In this document: positions 35,299 through 62,769 of the stretch, piece by piece
How the letters are laid out: each line of letters opens with the position of its first letter
How positions within the stretch are numbered: position 1 is the first letter of the stretch
Assembly: GCF_016863275.1 (NCBI RefSeq)
Contig: NZ_BOOO01000001.1
Coordinates: forward strand, 62,001 to 126,000
DNA: 64,000 bases
Source of the DNA: Planotetraspora mira
GTDB lineage: Bacteria; Actinomycetota; Actinomycetes; Streptosporangiales; Streptosporangiaceae
Direction of reading: 5' to 3'
The notes under the pieces: generated by a model
The model's database searches: none
What the model saw: only the letters and a program-made list of their open reading frames with translations
Told to the model about the DNA's origin: nothing
Program-made: the position numbers and the translations under genes

Positions 35299-36150
35299 AT
35301 GGGACGTTTCCGGGCATTCGGTGCCGTCGTGGCGCTCTTCTTGGCGGCTGCCTGTTCAGCTCAGACTACCGAATCGGACCAGCCCCCGGCCGGGGTTTCC
35401 GTGTCGCTGAACCAGTGGCGCAGTGGCGAGGCCGCGCACGCGATCGAGGTGTCCGTCCGGAACGACACCACGACGCCGGTGCGATTCCAGGACGTGCAAC
35501 TCGTCACCGCCTCGTTCGTGAAACTTCCCCCTGAACGGGTGGACACGACACTCGGCCGGACTCCCCGGACCGACCTCCGGATCCCGTACGGCCAGGCCCG
35601 CTGCGATCCGGCACGGATCCCCGCGGTCCGGCCGGCGACGGTGATCGCCCACATCCAGGTGGGAAACGGGCCGCTCCGGAAGGTCACCTTCACCATTCCG
35701 CATCCCGACCCGACGCTGAGCGGGCTGGTGAACGCCGAGTGCGGGGCCTTCATCCTGCGGGAGTCGGCTGACGTCACATTCGGCGACTCCTGGACGCACG
35801 AGGGCAAGGAGTTGCGCGGGGACCTCCTGGTCACGAGGAAGACCGGCAACGAGGCGGTCGCCATCGACGACCTCGGCGGCACCACCCACTTCAACATCCT
35901 GCCGGTGTCGGGCAAACGCCATCCGGTCGTGGTGCTCGAGCCGGGAGTGCGGAGCCTGGAGATCCCGGTGGTCGTCACCCCCGCGCGTTGCGACCCGCAC
36001 GCGTTCGGCGAGGCCAAGAAGGCGTTCCTGTTCCCCGTCTGGGGCACCGTGGCCGACGGGGAGACCTACTGGCTGATCGCCACTCCGTCGAAGCAGACGC
36101 AGGCGACCATGTTGTCGTACGCCGAGGACACCTGCGGCATCTCCAACTGA
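35299..36150 (+). CDS. Secreted lipoprotein of unknown function
   Basis: 283 residues. A signal ending in lipobox LAAAC, then two beta-rich halves: VSVSLNQWRSGEAAHAIEVSVRNDTTTPVRFQDVQL resembles an Ig-like fold. Four cysteines in the mature part (ARCDPARI, NAECGAF, PARCDPHAF, DTCGISN) could form two disulfides. Family not recognised. Its TGA is directly followed by the TCA stop of the convergent DUF2784 gene, leaving no intergenic base. Confidence 0.7.
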   Translation: MGRFRAFGAVVALFLAAACSAQTTESDQPPAGVSVSLNQWRSGEAAHAIEVSVRNDTTTPVRFQDVQLVTASFVKLPPERVDTTLGRTPRTDLRIPYGQARCDPARIPAVRPATVIAHIQVGNGPLRKVTFTIPHPDPTLSGLVNAECGAFILRESADVTFGDSWTHEGKELRGDLLVTRKTGNEAVAIDDLGGTTHFNILPVSGKRHPVVVLEPGVRSLEIPVVVTPARCDPHAFGEAKKAFLFPVWGTVADGETYWLIATPSKQTQATMLSYAEDTCGISN

Positions 36151-36552
36151 TCAACGGGCCGTGTTCCCGGGGGACGGGGTCGCCCCCGCGACTTCGGCGC
36201 GACGCCGGAGGCGGAAGAGGAAGCCCGCCCACGAGACCAGGATCACGGACACCACGATCAGCCGTACGAGGGCGATGTGGTCCGCGGGGTAGACCACGCC
36301 CTCGATGTAGGTGTCGATGAAGCCGCCGGGAGCCAGGCCGCGCTCCCCCGCGTGGGCCCGTGCCCAGTTCTCCAGGGCCGTCAGGGGGCACTCCACCAGG
36401 CCGGTGAGCTGCACGAGGCCCCAGGCGCACGCCAGCAGGTGCGGCCAGATCAGCCGCGGCCGGTACCAGGCCAGGAAGCCGCCCAGACCGATGTAGGCGA
36501 TGACCAGGAAGTGGACCACCATGGTGGCTTCTGAGATGACGCGATAAGTCAT
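36151..36552 (-). CDS. DUF2784 membrane protein
   Basis: 133 residues with three to four membrane helices. The family pattern is clear: a first helix with VVHFLVIAYIGLGGFLAWYRPRL, then WPHLLACAWGLVQLTGLVECPLTALENWARAHAGE, then GGFIDTYIEGVVYP. Role unknown. GGAGGGCAGATCA precedes the ATG. The first 53-bp repeat array begins 95 bp upstream of its start, in the region where its promoter should be. Confidence 0.8.
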   Translation of the reverse strand: MTYRVISEATMVVHFLVIAYIGLGGFLAWYRPRLIWPHLLACAWGLVQLTGLVECPLTALENWARAHAGERGLAPGGFIDTYIEGVVYPADHIALVRLIVVSVILVSWAGFLFRLRRRAEVAGATPSPGNTAR

Positions 36553-36646
36553 TGATCTGCCCTCCGCCCCCGAAAGTAGATCGCCCCCTCCCCCAGAACA
36601 TCCGTACTCCTACTCACCCTCCCTTGAGTGCGCTCGTGATTTGGGG

Positions 36647-36999
36647 GTGATCATGCACAGGTTCGGCGAAGGGGCCGCCGACGTGCGCGAACTTGGTCCG
36701 TGATCATGCGCGGATTCGGCGAAAGGCCGCCTGACCTGCGAATCCCGATTTCGTGATCATGCACAGATTCGGGGAAGCACCCCACCACCAGGGCGAATTC
36801 AACGCGTGATCATGCAACGAGCCGGCCGCTGCATGATCACGGCCGATATCGGCCCAGGTCGACGACCCGATCGCCGAAAGTGCGCATGATCACGCCCACC
36901 GTTTGGCCAGGTCACGCGGCAAGATTCCGAACCTCTGCATGATCACGGACCAAGTTCGCGCACGTCAGTGCACCTGCCCCCGAACCTGTGCATGATCAC
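36647..36999. repeat. 53-bp-pitch inverted repeat array 1 (4 forward + 4 inverted units)
   Basis: The unit GTGATCATGCACAGGTTCGG (20 bp, small changes allowed) starts at 36647, 36700, 36753 and 36806, exactly 53 bp apart. Its reverse complement ends at 36840, 36893, 36946 and 36999, again exactly 53 bp apart. Units 4 and 5 form a 35-bp centre with perfect 11-bp arms (GTGATCATGCA/TGCATGATCAC). The 33-bp spacers share a loose GACCTGG-like core; the outermost spacer on each side has the same 20 bases (36680-36699 and, inverted, 36947-36966). The pitch is not a multiple of three, so it is not coding. It fills most of the 473-bp gap between the DUF2784 and subtilase genes. Confidence 0.95.
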
Positions 37000-37007
37000 C
37001 CTCCATC

Positions 37008-37023
37008 CCCCCCACGAGGGGGG
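37008..37023 (-). terminator. Subtilase terminator
   Basis: CCCCCC-ACGA-GGGGGG, a 6-bp all-GC stem directly after the stop codon at 37026. Confidence 0.6.
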
Positions 37024-37025
37024 TG

Positions 37026-38663
37026 TCAGGGGGTGAGGGTGGCGGCTTGGGCGGCGTTGGCTATGCCGTGGCCGAAGAAGCCGTTCCGCTCCTTGGTCCC
37101 CTCACACGTCTGCGTGGCCGTGCCGTACTTGAAGGCGCGCGGCGTCGGGCAGGACGTCTGGGTCGCCGACGCGTACAGGAGTTTCTCCACCTGGTTCGGG
37201 TCCATGGTCAGACCGCCCTTGCCGGGCACGCCGAACCGGCTGATGATGATCGCCGCGATTCCCGTCACATGCGGGGCGGCCATCGAGGTGCCCTCAAGGT
37301 ACTGGTAGTAGGCGCACGTCCCCCCACGGCAGTCGCGCACGACGGACGCGTCGACCGGGTTGCCGTTGCCGTCGATCTGGTGCCCGGCCTTCAGCACGGC
37401 GGTCGGGGCCGCGGCGAGGATCTCCCTGCGCTCCCCGACCAGAGAGGTCCCGCTGTCGAAGATGTCGCCGCCCGGCGCCGCGATGTCGGTCTGCTCGACC
37501 CCGTAGTCGGAGTAGGCGGCCTTCTGGCCGCTGGGGCCCACCGAGGAGACCGCGATGACTCCGGGGAGTTCGGTCGGCACGTTGAGGCAGGTGTTGTCGA
37601 CCGTGCGCTCCTTCTCGGCCCCGAGCGGATAGTCGGGGCTGGCCGTGTCCTTGCTCGGCTTGCCCAGGTCGGAGCCGCTGTTGCCGATGGCGGTGACCAT
37701 GGTGACGCCGCGCTGGTGTGCGTAGGCGACGGCCCTGCGCATGCCGACGAGGATGCCGCGCTGGGCCAGTTGGTCGGCCCGCGAGTCCTGCGGGCTGGCC
37801 GCGCAGTTGAACGTCCAGGGGTCGACGTAGAAGCTCATGTTGACCACGTCGACACCCACGTCGCCCGCGTAGGCCAGGGCGTCCATGGTCGGCTTGAGGA
37901 AGAAGTAGCCGGAGTCGGTCCCGGCCCTCAGGTTGACCAGCGACACGTCGGGTGCGACCCCGGCGACGCCGATACCGTTGATCGGCGAGCCGATGGTGCT
38001 GGCCACATGGGTGCCGTGCCCGTCGTCGTCCACGTCGGCGGGGTCCTTGCAGCCCGCCACCTCGCAGGCGCCGTCGAACTTCTTGCCGTTGACGTCGTTC
38101 GGCAGGTCGGTGACGAAGTTGCGGCTCAACTGGCGGTTGAAGTTGGCCGCGATGTCGGGGTGGTTGCCGTCGACCCCGGTGTCGATGATGCCCACCAGCA
38201 CCTGGTGGTTGCCCCGCGCCTTGGCGTACGACCCGGTGGGCGTGGCGCCGATCATTCTCATGTCCCACTGCCGGTCGGACAGCGGGTCGCCGGCCACGGC
38301 CTTCGCTCCCCCCGACGTCTTCGGCGGGGGTGCCGCCATCGGCATGTCGGCGGCGGAGCCGATGGGGAGGTCGGGCGTGACCCCGACGACGGAGGGGCTG
38401 TCCGCCAGCGGTTCCGGAGCCGGGGCGCGTACGACGAGGTAGCCGAGCCTGTCGTCCTGGGACTCGATCACGCCCCCCGCGGCGGTGACCGCACGTGAGG
38501 CCGTGTCACGGGCACCGTCGGCGTAGAAGACCAGGTAGTCGCCGCCCTTGACGGGCGGGACGGACTTGACGGTCGGCATCGAGACACCGGCCGTGGCAGC
38601 GCTCGCGACGCCCACCAGTGCGATCGAAAACAGTGCCTTCGCGACACGCCCCCGTGATTTCAA
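37026..38663 (-). CDS. Secreted subtilisin-like serine protease (S8)
   Basis: 545 residues. A TTG start with GGAGGAG just upstream gives a signal peptide (LKSRGRVAKALFSIALVGVASAATA). A short I9-like propeptide (about 40-95) precedes the catalytic domain. The triad is Asp in GIIDTGVDG (about 161), His in GHGTHVAS (about 216) and Ser in GTSMAAPHV (about 460), with the oxyanion Asn in VTAIGNSG. Six or more cysteines suggest disulfides, as expected outside the cell. It lies between array 1 and the solitary repeat unit. Confidence 0.93.
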   Translation of the reverse strand: MKSRGRVAKALFSIALVGVASAATAGVSMPTVKSVPPVKGGDYLVFYADGARDTASRAVTAAGGVIESQDDRLGYLVVRAPAPEPLADSPSVVGVTPDLPIGSAADMPMAAPPPKTSGGAKAVAGDPLSDRQWDMRMIGATPTGSYAKARGNHQVLVGIIDTGVDGNHPDIAANFNRQLSRNFVTDLPNDVNGKKFDGACEVAGCKDPADVDDDGHGTHVASTIGSPINGIGVAGVAPDVSLVNLRAGTDSGYFFLKPTMDALAYAGDVGVDVVNMSFYVDPWTFNCAASPQDSRADQLAQRGILVGMRRAVAYAHQRGVTMVTAIGNSGSDLGKPSKDTASPDYPLGAEKERTVDNTCLNVPTELPGVIAVSSVGPSGQKAAYSDYGVEQTDIAAPGGDIFDSGTSLVGERREILAAAPTAVLKAGHQIDGNGNPVDASVVRDCRGGTCAYYQYLEGTSMAAPHVTGIAAIIISRFGVPGKGGLTMDPNQVEKLLYASATQTSCPTPRAFKYGTATQTCEGTKERNGFFGHGIANAAQAATLTP

Positions 38664-38830: not shown

Positions 38831-38850
38831 GTGATCATGCAAAGACTCGT
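38831..38850 (+). repeat. Solitary copy of the 53-bp array unit
   Basis: GTGATCATGCAAAGACTCGT matches the first 11 bases of the array unit exactly and 14 or more of its 20 positions. No further copy occurs 53 bp on either side. It lies in the 274-bp gap between the subtilase start and gltD end. The rest of that gap holds only the gltD terminator. Confidence 0.6.
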
Positions 38851-60204: not shown

Positions 60205-61428
60205 ATGTCATCCCCCCACCGGCGTATCGGCCGGCACAGTCTCATCGCCACCGCCGCGCTGGCGCTCGCCGCCGTGGCGGGCTGCGGCGGTTCGTCCACG
60301 ACGGGCTCGGCCCCCGCACCGGGGAGCACCGGTTTCACCCCGCCCAAGATCGAGGCGCTGAAGTCGCTCGGGCAGGGCGAAGGCCAGGTCAACCTGGTGG
60401 CCTGGGCGGGGTACGCCGAGGACGGCTCCAACGACCCGAAGGTCGACTGGGTGCACCCCTTCGAGCAGGCCACCGGCTGCAAGGTCAACACCAAGACCGC
60501 CGGCACTTCGGACGAGATGGTCAACCTGATGAAGACCGGCGAGTACGACGCCGTGTCCGCCTCGGGTGACGCCTCGCTGCGGCTGATCGCCTCGGGCACG
60601 GTCGCGCCGGTGAACACCGACCTCATCCCCAACTACAAGGACGTGTTCGAGGGCCTCAAGCTCAAGCCGTGGAACTCCGTCAACGGGGTCCCCTACGGCG
60701 TGCCGCACGGCCGTGGCGCGAACCTCCTGATGTGGCGGACGGACAAGGTCACGACGCCGCCGGACTCGTGGAGCGTCGTGTTCGACGGGGCCTCGCCGTA
60801 CAAGGGGCACGTGACGGCGTACGACTCGCCGATCTACATCGCCGACGCGGCGCTGTACCTGATGTCCACCAAGCCCGAACTCGGCATCAAGGACCCGTAC
60901 GCGCTGGACGACAAGCAACTCCAGGCGGCGGTCGACCTGCTGAAGCAGCAGAAGGCGAACATCGGCGAGTACTGGTCCGACTACACCAAGGCGGTCCAGA
61001 GCTTCAAGAGCGGCGACACCGTGGTGGGGACGACCTGGCAGGTCATCGCCAACCTGACCGAGGCCGAGAAGGCGCCGGTCCAGGTGACGTTGCCCAAGGA
61101 GGGCTCGACCGGCTGGTCGGACACCTGGATGGTCGCGGCCAAGGCCCAGCACCCCGACTGCGCGTACGAGTGGATGGACTGGATCATCTCCCCCAAGGCC
61201 AACGCCCAGGTGGCGGAGTGGTTCGGCGAGGCCCCGTCCAACGCCAAGGCGTGTGACGAGACGTCCGACAAGACGTTCTGCGACACCTTCCACGCAGCCG
61301 ACGAGAGCTACTTCTCCAAGGTCCACTACTGGACCACGCCGATCGCCCAGTGCCTCGACGGCCGTACGGACGTCAAGTGCACCGACTACTCGGAGTGGAC
61401 CCGAGCCTGGACCGAGATCAAGGGCTGA
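60205..61428 (+). CDS. potD: Polyamine-type ABC substrate-binding lipoprotein (PotD-like)
   Basis: 407 residues. Lipoprotein signal ending AVAGC. The fold is the type II periplasmic binding protein of the PotD/PotF group: NLVAWAGYAEDGSNDP, GTSDEMVNLMKTGEYDAVSASGDASLRLI, NGVPYGVPHGRGANLLMWRTD. AAGGAG lies eight bases before the ATG. Between it and the permease genes is the second repeat array. Confidence 0.9.
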   Translation: MSSPHRRIGRHSLIATAALALAAVAGCGGSSTTGSAPAPGSTGFTPPKIEALKSLGQGEGQVNLVAWAGYAEDGSNDPKVDWVHPFEQATGCKVNTKTAGTSDEMVNLMKTGEYDAVSASGDASLRLIASGTVAPVNTDLIPNYKDVFEGLKLKPWNSVNGVPYGVPHGRGANLLMWRTDKVTTPPDSWSVVFDGASPYKGHVTAYDSPIYIADAALYLMSTKPELGIKDPYALDDKQLQAAVDLLKQQKANIGEYWSDYTKAVQSFKSGDTVVGTTWQVIANLTEAEKAPVQVTLPKEGSTGWSDTWMVAAKAQHPDCAYEWMDWIISPKANAQVAEWFGEAPSNAKACDETSDKTFCDTFHAADESYFSKVHYWTTPIAQCLDGRTDVKCTDYSEWTRAWTEIKG

Positions 61429-61450
61429 CCCCACCCCCCTTTTTTTGGCC

Positions 61451-61856
61451 GTGATCATGCACAGGTTCGGAAACAGGCCCGCTGACCAGGCCAAACCCCA
61501 AGCGTGATCATGCACAGGTTCGGCGGCAGGTCCGTTGACCAGGTGAAATCCAGTTCGCGATCATGCACAGGTTCGGAGATACGCCGGCCCAGCTGGGAGA
61601 ACACGGTCCGTGATCATGCAGTCGGCGACGGCGTGCATGATCACGGACGGCGTCACCGCAGGTCGGGCGGGACGTGCACGAACTTGCGCATGATCACGGA
61701 AGGCGTCACCCCAGGTTGGGCGGCACGTGCGCGAACCTGCGCATGATCACGACGTGCGTCGCCGCAGCTCAGCCCAGCTGATCACGAATGTGTGCATGAT
61801 CACGGCGGGGGTTGGGGCAGGTCGCTCGGGGTGCCCACGAATGTGTGCATGATCAC
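61451..61856. repeat. 53-bp-pitch inverted repeat array 2 (4 forward + 5 inverted units)
   Basis: Forward units start at 61451, 61504, 61557 and 61610, exactly 53 bp apart; inverted units end at 61644, 61697, 61750, 61803 and 61856, again exactly 53 bp apart. The first two forward units are the perfect GTGATCATGCACAGGTTCGG. The centre, 61610-61644, is 35 bp with perfect 11-bp arms, the same layout as array 1 at 36806-36840. Spacers of 33 bp share a GACCAGG/GACCTGG core. An eight-base T-run directly precedes the array. It fills most of the 465-bp gap between potD and potB, on the transcribed strand of the operon; nothing else recognisable lies in that gap. Confidence 0.95.
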
Positions 61857-61893
61857 GCGCAAGAGAGGCGTGGAGAGTGAGAGAGAAGGAAGC

Positions 61894-62769
61894 ATGACGG
61901 CGAGTGCTGCTTTGGGGGATGGGGAGGCCGCGGGCCTTCGGCGGCGGGTGGCGGCCTTCTTGCACAGACACGCCCGCGTACGGCTGTCGCTGCTGCTGTC
62001 GGCTCCCCTCGCCTGGCTGGGCCTGGCATACCTGGGCTCCCTGGCCGCCCTGTTCGTGACCGCTTTCTGGTCGACCGACACCTTCACCGGCGACCTGGTC
62101 AAGGTCTTCACCTGGGCCAACTTCCAGGACCTCGTCACGGGTGAGGTCTACCGGACGGTCGCCCTGCGCTCCCTCTGGGTCGCCGCCGCGGTGACGGTCA
62201 TCGACCTGGTGATCGCCTTCCCCATGGCGTTCGCGATGGCCAAGCTCGCCTCGCCGCGGTCCCAGCGGTGGCTGGTGATCCTCGTCCTCACTCCCCTGTG
62301 GGCCTCCTACCTGGTCAAGGCGTACGCCTGGCGGGTGTTGCTCTCGTCCGGCGGCATCCTCGGCTGGGGGTACGGCCTGACCGCGACGATCGCGACGCTC
62401 TCCTACCTCTGGTTGCCGTACATGATCCTGCCGATCTACGCGGGTCTCGAACGGCTGCCCAACGCCCTGCTGGACGCGTCCGGCGACCTCGGGGCCCGCG
62501 GCTGGCGGACGTTCAGGACCGTGGTGTGGCCGCTGACGTTCCCGGCCGTCGTCGCGGGCTCGATCTTCACGTTCTCGTTGTCGCTGGGCGACTACATCAC
62601 CGTGAAGATCGTCGGCGGCAAGTCGCAGCTCATCGGCAACGTCGTCTACGACAACATCGGCGCGGCCAACAACCTCCCCTTCGCCGCGGCCGTGGCCACC
62701 GTCCCAGTCCTGATCATGCTGGTCTACCTCGCGGCCGTCCGCCGTACCGGCGCGCTGGACAACCTGTGA
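61894..62769 (+). CDS. potB: Polyamine-type ABC importer permease (PotB-like)
   Basis: 291 residues with six helices. It has the binding-protein-dependent permease loop DASGDLGARGWRTFRTVVWPLTFPAVVAG (the EAA-like loop that docks on PotA) and LTPLWASYLVKAYAWRVLL. AAGGA precedes the ATG. It begins 37 bp after the repeat array ends. Confidence 0.9.
   Translation: MTASAALGDGEAAGLRRRVAAFLHRHARVRLSLLLSAPLAWLGLAYLGSLAALFVTAFWSTDTFTGDLVKVFTWANFQDLVTGEVYRTVALRSLWVAAAVTVIDLVIAFPMAFAMAKLASPRSQRWLVILVLTPLWASYLVKAYAWRVLLSSGGILGWGYGLTATIATLSYLWLPYMILPIYAGLERLPNALLDASGDLGARGWRTFRTVVWPLTFPAVVAGSIFTFSLSLGDYITVKIVGGKSQLIGNVVYDNIGAANNLPFAAAVATVPVLIMLVYLAAVRRTGALDNL

Follow-up and report, generated by a model that had tools for sequence, protein, structure and literature searches.

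REP/BIME elements occur in hundreds of extragenic copies, often behind stop codons, and have been proposed to act in termination and to bind proteins (PMC3733652, PMC2817692, PMC12306157), traits in which they resemble the repeat arrays of Planotetraspora analyzed below. REP/BIME are palindromes of 20–40 bp in alternating orientation (PMC2817692) with a GTAG/CGTC tag at one end (PMC3733652), whereas in the Planotetraspora arrays direct repeats phased at 53 bp form arms that face inward, and their consensus carries no such tag. REPs are also described as supplying, at times, a stop codon (TAG), the counterpart of which in the Planotetraspora arrays is the TGA of GTGATC. RhoTermPredict takes as a RUT site 78 nt with a C/G ratio above 1 in which C recurs at regular intervals, and looks for a pause site after it (PMC6407284). 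The arrays share the 78-nt C>G zone with spaced C before a stall point, but the pause sites of the predictor are not repeats, while the stall point proposed here is a phased array of protein sites.

Reb1 sites and the Sal boxes of TTF-I are roadblock terminators. According to a review, DNA-bound Rap1 and LacI stop the polymerase, Rap1 in an orientation-dependent manner (PMC10310618). The present arrays differ in having up to ten sites per place, one or two arms and ~140 bacterial places, and their protein sites are putative. Among actinobacteria, the mycobacterial MIRU are intergenic tandem units of ~50 bp at stop codons and are one-directional; we know of no inward-facing arms or core-plus-pitch rule among them. 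The ends of Tn7 and Mu carry inward-facing repeated transposase sites. The arrays share inward-facing repeated sites with these ends and with MITEs, as well as terminal inverted repeats in the related genus g86, but differ in that no target-site duplications were seen, the sites are shared across species and the sequence dialect changed in place. No description of these repeats was found in the open-licence literature searched; the letters of GTGATCATGC occur in 48 papers and those of GTGATCTTGTAGTTTGTCGC in 6, with unrelated titles among the matches listed.

Organization of the arrays and their units

The window, a stretch of 64,000 nucleotides from P. mira (positions 62001-126000 of contig C1), carries two arrays, at 36647-36999 (4+4 cores) and 61451-61856 (4+5). 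The arrays and their neighbors are as follows, in window coordinates.

36151..36552, minus strand: gene for a DUF2784 protein, 5' end toward array 1
36569..36646, plus strand: left lead-in of array 1, C-rich and G-poor (C 31, G 16 of 78; C/G 1.94)
36647..36815, plus strand: forward arm of array 1, GTGATCATGC cores at 36647, 36700, 36753 and 36806, with three 43-bp spacers
36816..36830, no strand: centre of array 1, 15 bp separating the innermost cores
36831..36999, minus strand: reverse arm of array 1, cores at 36831, 36884, 36937 and 36990, ending at 36840, 36893, 36946 and 36999
37000..37077, read on the minus strand: right lead-in of array 1, C-rich (C 35, G 22; C/G 1.59), containing the subtilase stop codon
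37026..38711, minus strand: subtilase (Peptidase_S8) gene, stop codon 26 bp from array 1
60205..61428, plus strand: extracellular solute-binding protein (SBP_bac_8) gene, stop codon 22 bp ahead of array 2
61373..61450, plus strand: left lead-in of array 2 (C 28, G 20; C/G 1.40, below the 1.5 mark), with a C tract right behind the stop codon
61451..61619, plus strand: forward arm of array 2, cores at 61451, 61504, 61557 (= GCGATCATGC) and 61610
61620..61634, no strand: centre of array 2, 15 bp separating the innermost cores
61635..61856, minus strand: reverse arm of array 2, five cores, ending at 61644, 61697, 61750, 61803 and 61856
61857..61934, read on the minus strand: right lead-in of array 2 (C 40, G 11; C/G 3.64)
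61948..62769 (start codon provisional), plus strand: ABC transporter permease (BPD_transp_1) gene, downstream of array 2

All steps in array 1 are of 53 bp, and its centre measures 35 bp when counted with the innermost cores (36806-36840), so that the unit coordinates, pitch, inverted 4+4 layout and centre reported for it in a first-pass annotation were all confirmed, and array 2, the nearness to stop codons and the C-rich lead-ins are additions to that annotation; array 2 has the same pitch and centre, and sits within an apparent operon. Exact cores numbered 17 in the window, against 0.11 expected from dinucleotide shuffles. A single exact GTGATCATGC core, outside any array, was also observed at 38831-38840 (plus strand), where it lies ~120 bp outside the subtilase gene on the side of its 5' end.

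The P. mira genome (9.03 Mb) contains 972 exact copies of GTGATCATGC, 475 forward and 497 reverse, while the reversed control gave none; at seven cores per array, we estimate ~140 arrays per genome. Array structure was analyzed in a sample of 81 arrays with both flanking genes, taken from seven contigs of six genomes and 20 further P. mira stretches; contig C1 of P. mira was covered almost completely (370 of 382 kb), whereas the presence of arrays was the reason for choosing the other P. mira stretches, and six of these were selected for exact two-sided centres. When the distance from each exact core to its next neighbor on the same strand was taken without filtering, within a limit of 300 bp, 327 of 363 were of 53 bp (52 of 59 in C1 alone). 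The remainder comprised nine distances of 52 bp, two of 54, seven of 105-106, in which one unit is missing or altered, and 18 of 18-35, which are off-phase cores. For array assembly a core had to have a partner on the same strand 51-55 bp away, a pre-filter after which 365 of 377 steps were of 53 bp.

Arms were arranged forward-then-reverse in 87 cases and in the opposite order in one, with 49 one-sided arrays, in a count that pools four species, in which orthologous arrays recur, and that scores arms more than 220 bp apart as one-sided. The centre varied from 30 to 162 bp, 35 bp being the commonest length (14 of 43 two-sided arrays); the pitch is thus fixed inside an arm, not between arms. 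Strong hairpins were found in 2 of 11 P. mira centres of at least 30 bp; the long centres at G000:C1:278946-279524 and G000:C2:206368-206910 hold strong hairpins of terminator-like form (z -3.9 and -3.0), and the arms there accordingly flank a hairpin. At G000:C4:463483-465253 a gene reading as a cytochrome P450 (463707-464981), adjoining a second such gene, lies between a five-core forward and a five-core reverse arm, and arm pairs likewise hold genes at a further locus (L243, UbiA-like by eye) and in g86 (arms ~1.3 and 2.7 kb apart). The genes within three such separated pairs (P450, UbiA-like and a small protein, read directly and not by family search) included no transposase and look ordinary.

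In terms of unit anatomy, the conserved positions of 212 internal P. mira units are CGTGATCATGCAC, TTCG at 16-19, tGACCTG at 33-39 and A at 45, within the consensus CGTGATCATGCACaggTTCG...tGACCTGC. Conservation after the core was lost at 66 innermost cores, compared with the 212 internal units, and the TTCG and GACCTG spacer elements thus appear only between two cores. Beyond the outermost core there is a C tract, followed by T at -6 and GGC at -3 to -1. The earlier proposal that the pitch places all units on the same DNA face proved to be arithmetic only, since in a Fourier analysis of conservation along the unit the share at 10.6 bp was not significant (permutation p = 0.20).

Several described families were rejected on their defining features, in line with the first-pass exclusion of CRISPR and REP/BIME, which holds for the features tested. 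REP/BIME was rejected for the lack of palindromic pairing, of the tag, of alternation (87 versus 1) and of a RAYT in P. mira, copy number and nearness to stop codons being the features shared. The RAYT transposase family PF01797 was detected in 5 of 13 genomes searched (G001, G007, G060, G091 and G109), with no correlation to arrays, and had no match in G000 (P. mira), G002-G004, G077, G085, G209 or G238. A CRISPR array was rejected since the spacers share TTCG and GACCTG and the arms of two-sided arrays are inverted, and a target-duplicating MITE of the DDE type, whose terminal inverted repeats the arrays share, since there was no clear excess of target-site duplications. The arrays are rated as a new kind of element, because they lack a tested defining feature of each of REP/BIME, CRISPR and MITE; they would be a variant if any extragenic repeat family counts as one kind.

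Conservation and dialects within and beyond the genus

A search of related genomes for the unit at 53-bp spacing, as suggested in the first-pass annotation, found it to be numerous in all five genomes of the genus and in one sister-genus genome, and thus did not refute that annotation. Pairs of TGATCATGC at 53 bp numbered 305+333 in P. mira, 346+333 in P. thailandica (G001), 74+53 in G002, 261+284 in P. kaengkrachanensis (G003), 329+315 in P. silvatica (G004) and 179+210 in sp. A-T 1434 (G085). Within the family, 10 of 297 genomes had any such pair; apart from these six, the others were all from g86, with 1 to 9 each. A five-core pattern searched in one genome per species (84,980 species) matched 81 stretches, and the 80 listed were all from Planotetraspora, the P. 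mira genome itself being perhaps outside that set.

Counterparts of the 13 P. mira C1 arrays, matched by order, coordinates and context, were found at 13 of 13 sites in P. silvatica and 12 of 13 in P. kaengkrachanensis, and where P. thailandica is collinear with C1 it had 7 of 8. For four P. thailandica arrays (96770, 106375, 108281 and 153943) no counterpart was found. Site 60118 lacks the array in G001, G002 and G003, where the gene content differs. At site 278946, arrays were observed in Planotetraspora including sp. A-T 1434 and in none of seven genomes of g86, g55 and g72; by eye, a GC hairpin occupies the place in some of the seven. G002 shares array places but carries few units, 1+1 at 98647 and 2+2 at 123451, the outermost units of the latter being recognizably homologous, and so offers a natural experiment in array shortening.

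Among 59 orthologous units of P. mira and P. silvatica, positions 20-32 had changed in 17.6% and the core in 0.8%, the latter a figure biased by the unit search, which was made by core with up to two mismatches. The comparison covers unit pairs in which over 36 of the 53 bases are identical. Positions 17-19, with ~1% change, and 33-39 played no part in the search and are therefore free of the core-search bias. As to the first-pass view that spacers vary more than units, the spacer sequence is not unconstrained, since the TTCG, tGACCTG and A45 elements stay conserved wherever a spacer has a core on both sides.

Species also differ in dialects of the unit, which were genome-wide within the units sampled. 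CAGAA was found in 138 of 154 P. thailandica units, in none of 193 from P. mira or 301 from P. silvatica, and in one of 144 from P. kaengkrachanensis; TTCC characterized 15 of 21 units of sp. A-T 1434. In arrays 270254 and 215334 the spacer was recognizable across species though positions 12-15 differ, and judged from these comparisons the dialects in the arrays examined have evidently changed in place. In array 98647 the outer spacers, compared arm against arm, showed an identity of 0.85 in P. kaengkrachanensis, 0.76 in P. mira and 0.44 in P. silvatica, with sequences that differ between species. Such homogenization of the arms points to probable conversion between inverted arms, which is perhaps the source of the good arm pairing in part of the arrays.

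Beyond the genus, three g86 genomes that were read carry mostly GTGATCTTGTAGTTTGTCGC as outer cores and GTGATCATGC or GTGATCTTGC as inner ones, with a pitch of 53 and GACCTG in phase. These arrays adjoin stop codons at most loci, and 13 of 20 edges were C-rich (C/G >1.5), versus 9 of 73 convergent stops. The 20-bp GTGATCTTGTAGTTTGTCGC stands at both outer ends, and at least ten elements of 235-237 bp were found in G209. The neighbors of 3 of 13 g86 loci were located in the sampled Planotetraspora sequence, with a common array position in two and not in the third, a comparison biased in that both matching loci were sampled because they carry arrays. When one mismatch was allowed, a GTGATCNTG pair was found in 39 of 100 family genomes (control total 1), mostly 1 to 3 per genome, a level that we regard as close to chance; the exception is genus g55, with 30+37 and 144+157. 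At class level, exact GTGATCWTG pairs occurred in 6 of 296 genomes (control 0); outside the family, G377 has five pairs, and G430 and G537 have one each. The five of G377, a genome from another actinobacterial family, are 53-bp GTGATCATG pairs and differ in dialect. Within g86, arrays are present in G143, G209 and G238, and G091, G122, G162 and G177 gave no hits at class level. In G113:C5 (genus g67) a repeat of another kind was observed, with GTGATCTTG and CAAGATCA, perhaps of an unrelated family.

Gene ends and the C-rich lead-in

Genes were called by a simple codon-score script, with which start distances are rougher than stop distances. The stop-facing array edges of P. mira lay at a median of 19 bp from the stop codon, 39 of 48 within 40 bp, while start-facing edges lay at a median of 78 bp, 9 of 32 within 40 bp (p = 1.5e-5). 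The corresponding fractions within 40 bp, stop-facing versus start-facing, were 42/59 versus 3/27 in P. silvatica, 15/31 versus 2/13 in P. thailandica and 18/27 versus 2/11 in P. kaengkrachanensis. Of the arms that follow a stop in P. mira, 34 of 40 began within 35 bp, and in 7 of 40 the TGA of the first core (GTGATC) is the stop codon of the gene itself. Gene-pair contexts in P. mira showed a tendency only, relative to the genome (convergent 11 of 40, p = 0.21; divergent 3 of 40, p = 0.18).

The idea of arms as gene-oriented terminators, for which the one-sided arrays served as the test, was unsupported, with no clear tie to gene direction: a match was seen in 10 of 14 in P. mira and in 7/13, 6/10 and 4/6 in three other species, and when only co-directional contexts were counted, gene direction was followed in 6/10, 4/9, 1/5 and 0/1.

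The sequence leading into the arrays is rich in C and poor in G. In the gap between stop codon and array the fractions were C 0.59 and G 0.18 (n = 33), versus 0.37 and 0.34 in the 25 nt behind other stops (n = 311; p = 5.5e-15). Start-facing edges, read into the array, gave C 0.54 and G 0.18 (n = 24) versus 0.32 and 0.32 (n = 319; p = 3.8e-10), so the C-richness belongs to the array edge. The open ends of one-sided arrays had C 0.37 and G 0.35 facing stops (n = 5) and 0.47 and 0.27 facing starts (n = 4). Four start-facing edges of P. silvatica showed no skew (mean C-G -0.04).

The C skew rises across ~60-80 nt toward the array edge and extends into coding sequence. The last 60 coding nt of array-ended P. 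mira genes had a skew of 0.136, compared with 0.024 (p = 2.9e-6), or with 0.052 in other convergent genes (p = 6.9e-4); at 90-150 nt upstream in the array-ended genes it was absent. The coding skew agreed in P. thailandica (p = 1.8e-3) and P. silvatica (p = 3.9e-3), and in P. kaengkrachanensis had the same direction, not significantly (p = 0.06).

When the 78 nt up to the outer edge were scored, C/G exceeded 1.5 at 51 of 66 P. mira edges, versus 17 of 186 other convergent stops (odds ratio 34, p = 4e-25) and 43 of 520 of all other stops; for C/G >2 the counts were 34 of 66, 0 of 186 and 1 of 520. With six C spaced 11-13 nt required in addition to C/G >1.5, they were 44 of 66, 17 of 186 and 41 of 520, and the zone thus corresponds to the 78-nt C>G sequence rule for Rho terminators. 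Three of the four edges in the window lie above 1.5 (1.94, 1.59 and 3.64) and one below (1.40). In contig controls at the same threshold, edges versus convergent stops were 11/15 versus 8/83 in P. thailandica, 12/17 versus 9/92 in P. kaengkrachanensis, 15/19 versus 7/93 in P. silvatica and 3/4 versus 2/16 in sp. A-T 1434. In a wider set, consisting of array loci plus the same contigs (for P. silvatica, loci without the contig), the edges above 1.5 were 36/55, 25/47, 57/79 and 6/16, respectively, the last being weaker. Open ends, with the zone begun 20 nt beyond the last core, exceeded 1.5 in 1/14 (P. mira), 2/19 (P. thailandica), 1/14 (P. kaengkrachanensis), 3/13 (P. silvatica) and 1/4 (A-T 1434). 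The C-rich zone ends where the arm starts and is missing at open ends, and each arm therefore has a direction. From the composition of the lead-in we infer the probable signature of Rho loading sites. No intrinsic terminator (GC hairpin plus T run) was found in 36100-37100, the region of array 1, and the window compared with Rfam at gathering scores yielded only the tRNA and nothing at the arrays.

A proposed directional roadblock and its alternatives

A pitch that does not vary, cores that hardly change and dialects that shifted in place are together what would be expected if a single trans-acting DNA-binding protein used these sites. Neither RNA pairing nor a dead transposon would need any of the three, for which reason the protein reading is preferred, and the pattern argues for selection for recognition by a candidate DNA-binding protein. 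Of the two targets of selection considered in the first-pass annotation, protein binding has indirect support from the strict pitch, the near-frozen cores at orthologous sites, the in-place dialects and the absence of pairing covariation inside the unit.

We propose, with a probability of about 0.45, that the arrays are directional Rho-loading zones combined with a protein roadblock, vertically inherited and placed mostly at gene ends. A sequence-specific protein would occupy the cores at the 53-bp pitch and contact TTCG and GACCTG between two cores, so that each arm would form a regular multi-site complex. A polymerase entering an arm from its outer end would just have made ~80 nt of C-rich, G-poor RNA, on which Rho could load; it would then meet the protein-filled arm as a roadblock, and the transcript would end. 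Two inward-facing arms would shut the interval from both sides, and a one-sided array would guard one direction. Release of the polymerase could be carried out by Mfd in place of Rho; the review on roadblocks calls the role of Rho there unclear and names Mfd among factors that release polymerase (PMC10310618). From DNA sequence we infer the protein and its occupancy as well as Rho loading and termination, the protein-site part being the most secure and the Rho part the least. With ~140 arrays in a 9-Mb genome, such a system is not a general terminator. Against the proposal, full termination at array 2 would be costly inside the apparent operon, and the C-richness could reflect an insertion preference instead.

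A domesticated or fossil miniature transposon, in which the outer cores would be terminal inverted repeats and the inner ones subterminal transposase sites, and which landed beside stops or terminators, is regarded as unlikely. The inward-facing order of the arms (87 to 1), the GTGATCTTGTAGTTTGTCGC at both outer ends of g86 arrays together with the G209 elements of uniform length, and the dispersed, intergenic copies with no clear tie to gene direction would all suit it. The earlier statement that the arrays fit no transposon terminal structure is weakened by the outer ends, which are inverted repeats like those of transposons; as to target-site duplications, there was no clear excess over mismatched flanks at 2-9 bp in 49 two-sided arrays. 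The sites common to P. silvatica, P. kaengkrachanensis and the testable part of P. thailandica, the frozen cores and in-place dialects of old copies, and the ordinary-looking genes between the three separated arm pairs also speak against a transposon. In addition, no array match was found when a three-core pattern was searched against IMG/VR viral contigs, array 1 against plasmids and array 2 against phages.

There is likewise a rather small chance that the arrays are chromosome-architecture anchors for a nucleoid-associated or loop-forming protein, for which gene ends would be the least harmful place and inward arms the geometry of the anchor. Any abundant site-specific protein would be compatible with the number of sites, their strict pitch and rule of orientation, and with the constraint and the dialects, and one-sided arrays have no clear link to gene direction; a C-rich, G-poor zone at the outer edges only, reaching into coding sequence, is not predicted by such anchoring.

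Least probable, and indeed quite improbable, is an RNA element resembling REP/BIME, in which the transcript of a two-sided array would form a giant hairpin and thereby either shield the mRNA upstream or make ribosomes or polymerase stall; it is at variance with the weak folding of one-sided arrays, the lack of covariation and an exact 53-bp pitch that pairing does not need. Two-sided arrays do fold strongly: array 1 gave z -16.1 with 100 shuffles (-11.5 with 15), and 23 of the 26 two-sided P. mira arrays (three longer than 480 nt being omitted) a mean z of -13.3. Array 2 lies between solute-binding-protein and permease genes, the type of junction at which, in E. coli malE, REPs reportedly stabilize the upstream message. 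For one-sided arrays the advantage over shuffles was slight (mean z -2.2, n = 14). The arms of an array paired better with each other than in the median chimera with foreign arms in just 14 of 24 cases (p = 0.084), and in five arrays 7 changes in both arms were observed where 4.4 were expected, one of them matched. Inside the 212 internal units no base-pair covariation was detected, the strongest dependencies being between neighboring bases with no pairing preference. The RNA hairpin was thus rejected as a general conserved feature.

Returning to the roadblock with a Rho-loading entry, a broader proposal, which we advance tentatively and hold to be somewhat doubtful, is that of a transcription-boundary system: a dedicated protein would fill 53-bp-phased, inward-facing arrays at ~140 places, for the most part gene ends, each with a Rho-loading entry, and would co-evolve with ~1,000 sites to give species dialects, and another actinobacterial family may have a diverged version. 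If this is true, bacteria would own a regular, multi-site, two-way transcription barrier made of phased, protein-filled DNA and a Rho-loading zone, a boundary element absent from the open-licence literature searched. The arrays might then serve as insulators in actinomycete engineering, and the species dialects would constitute a natural experiment in which one protein and about a thousand sites have been changing together.
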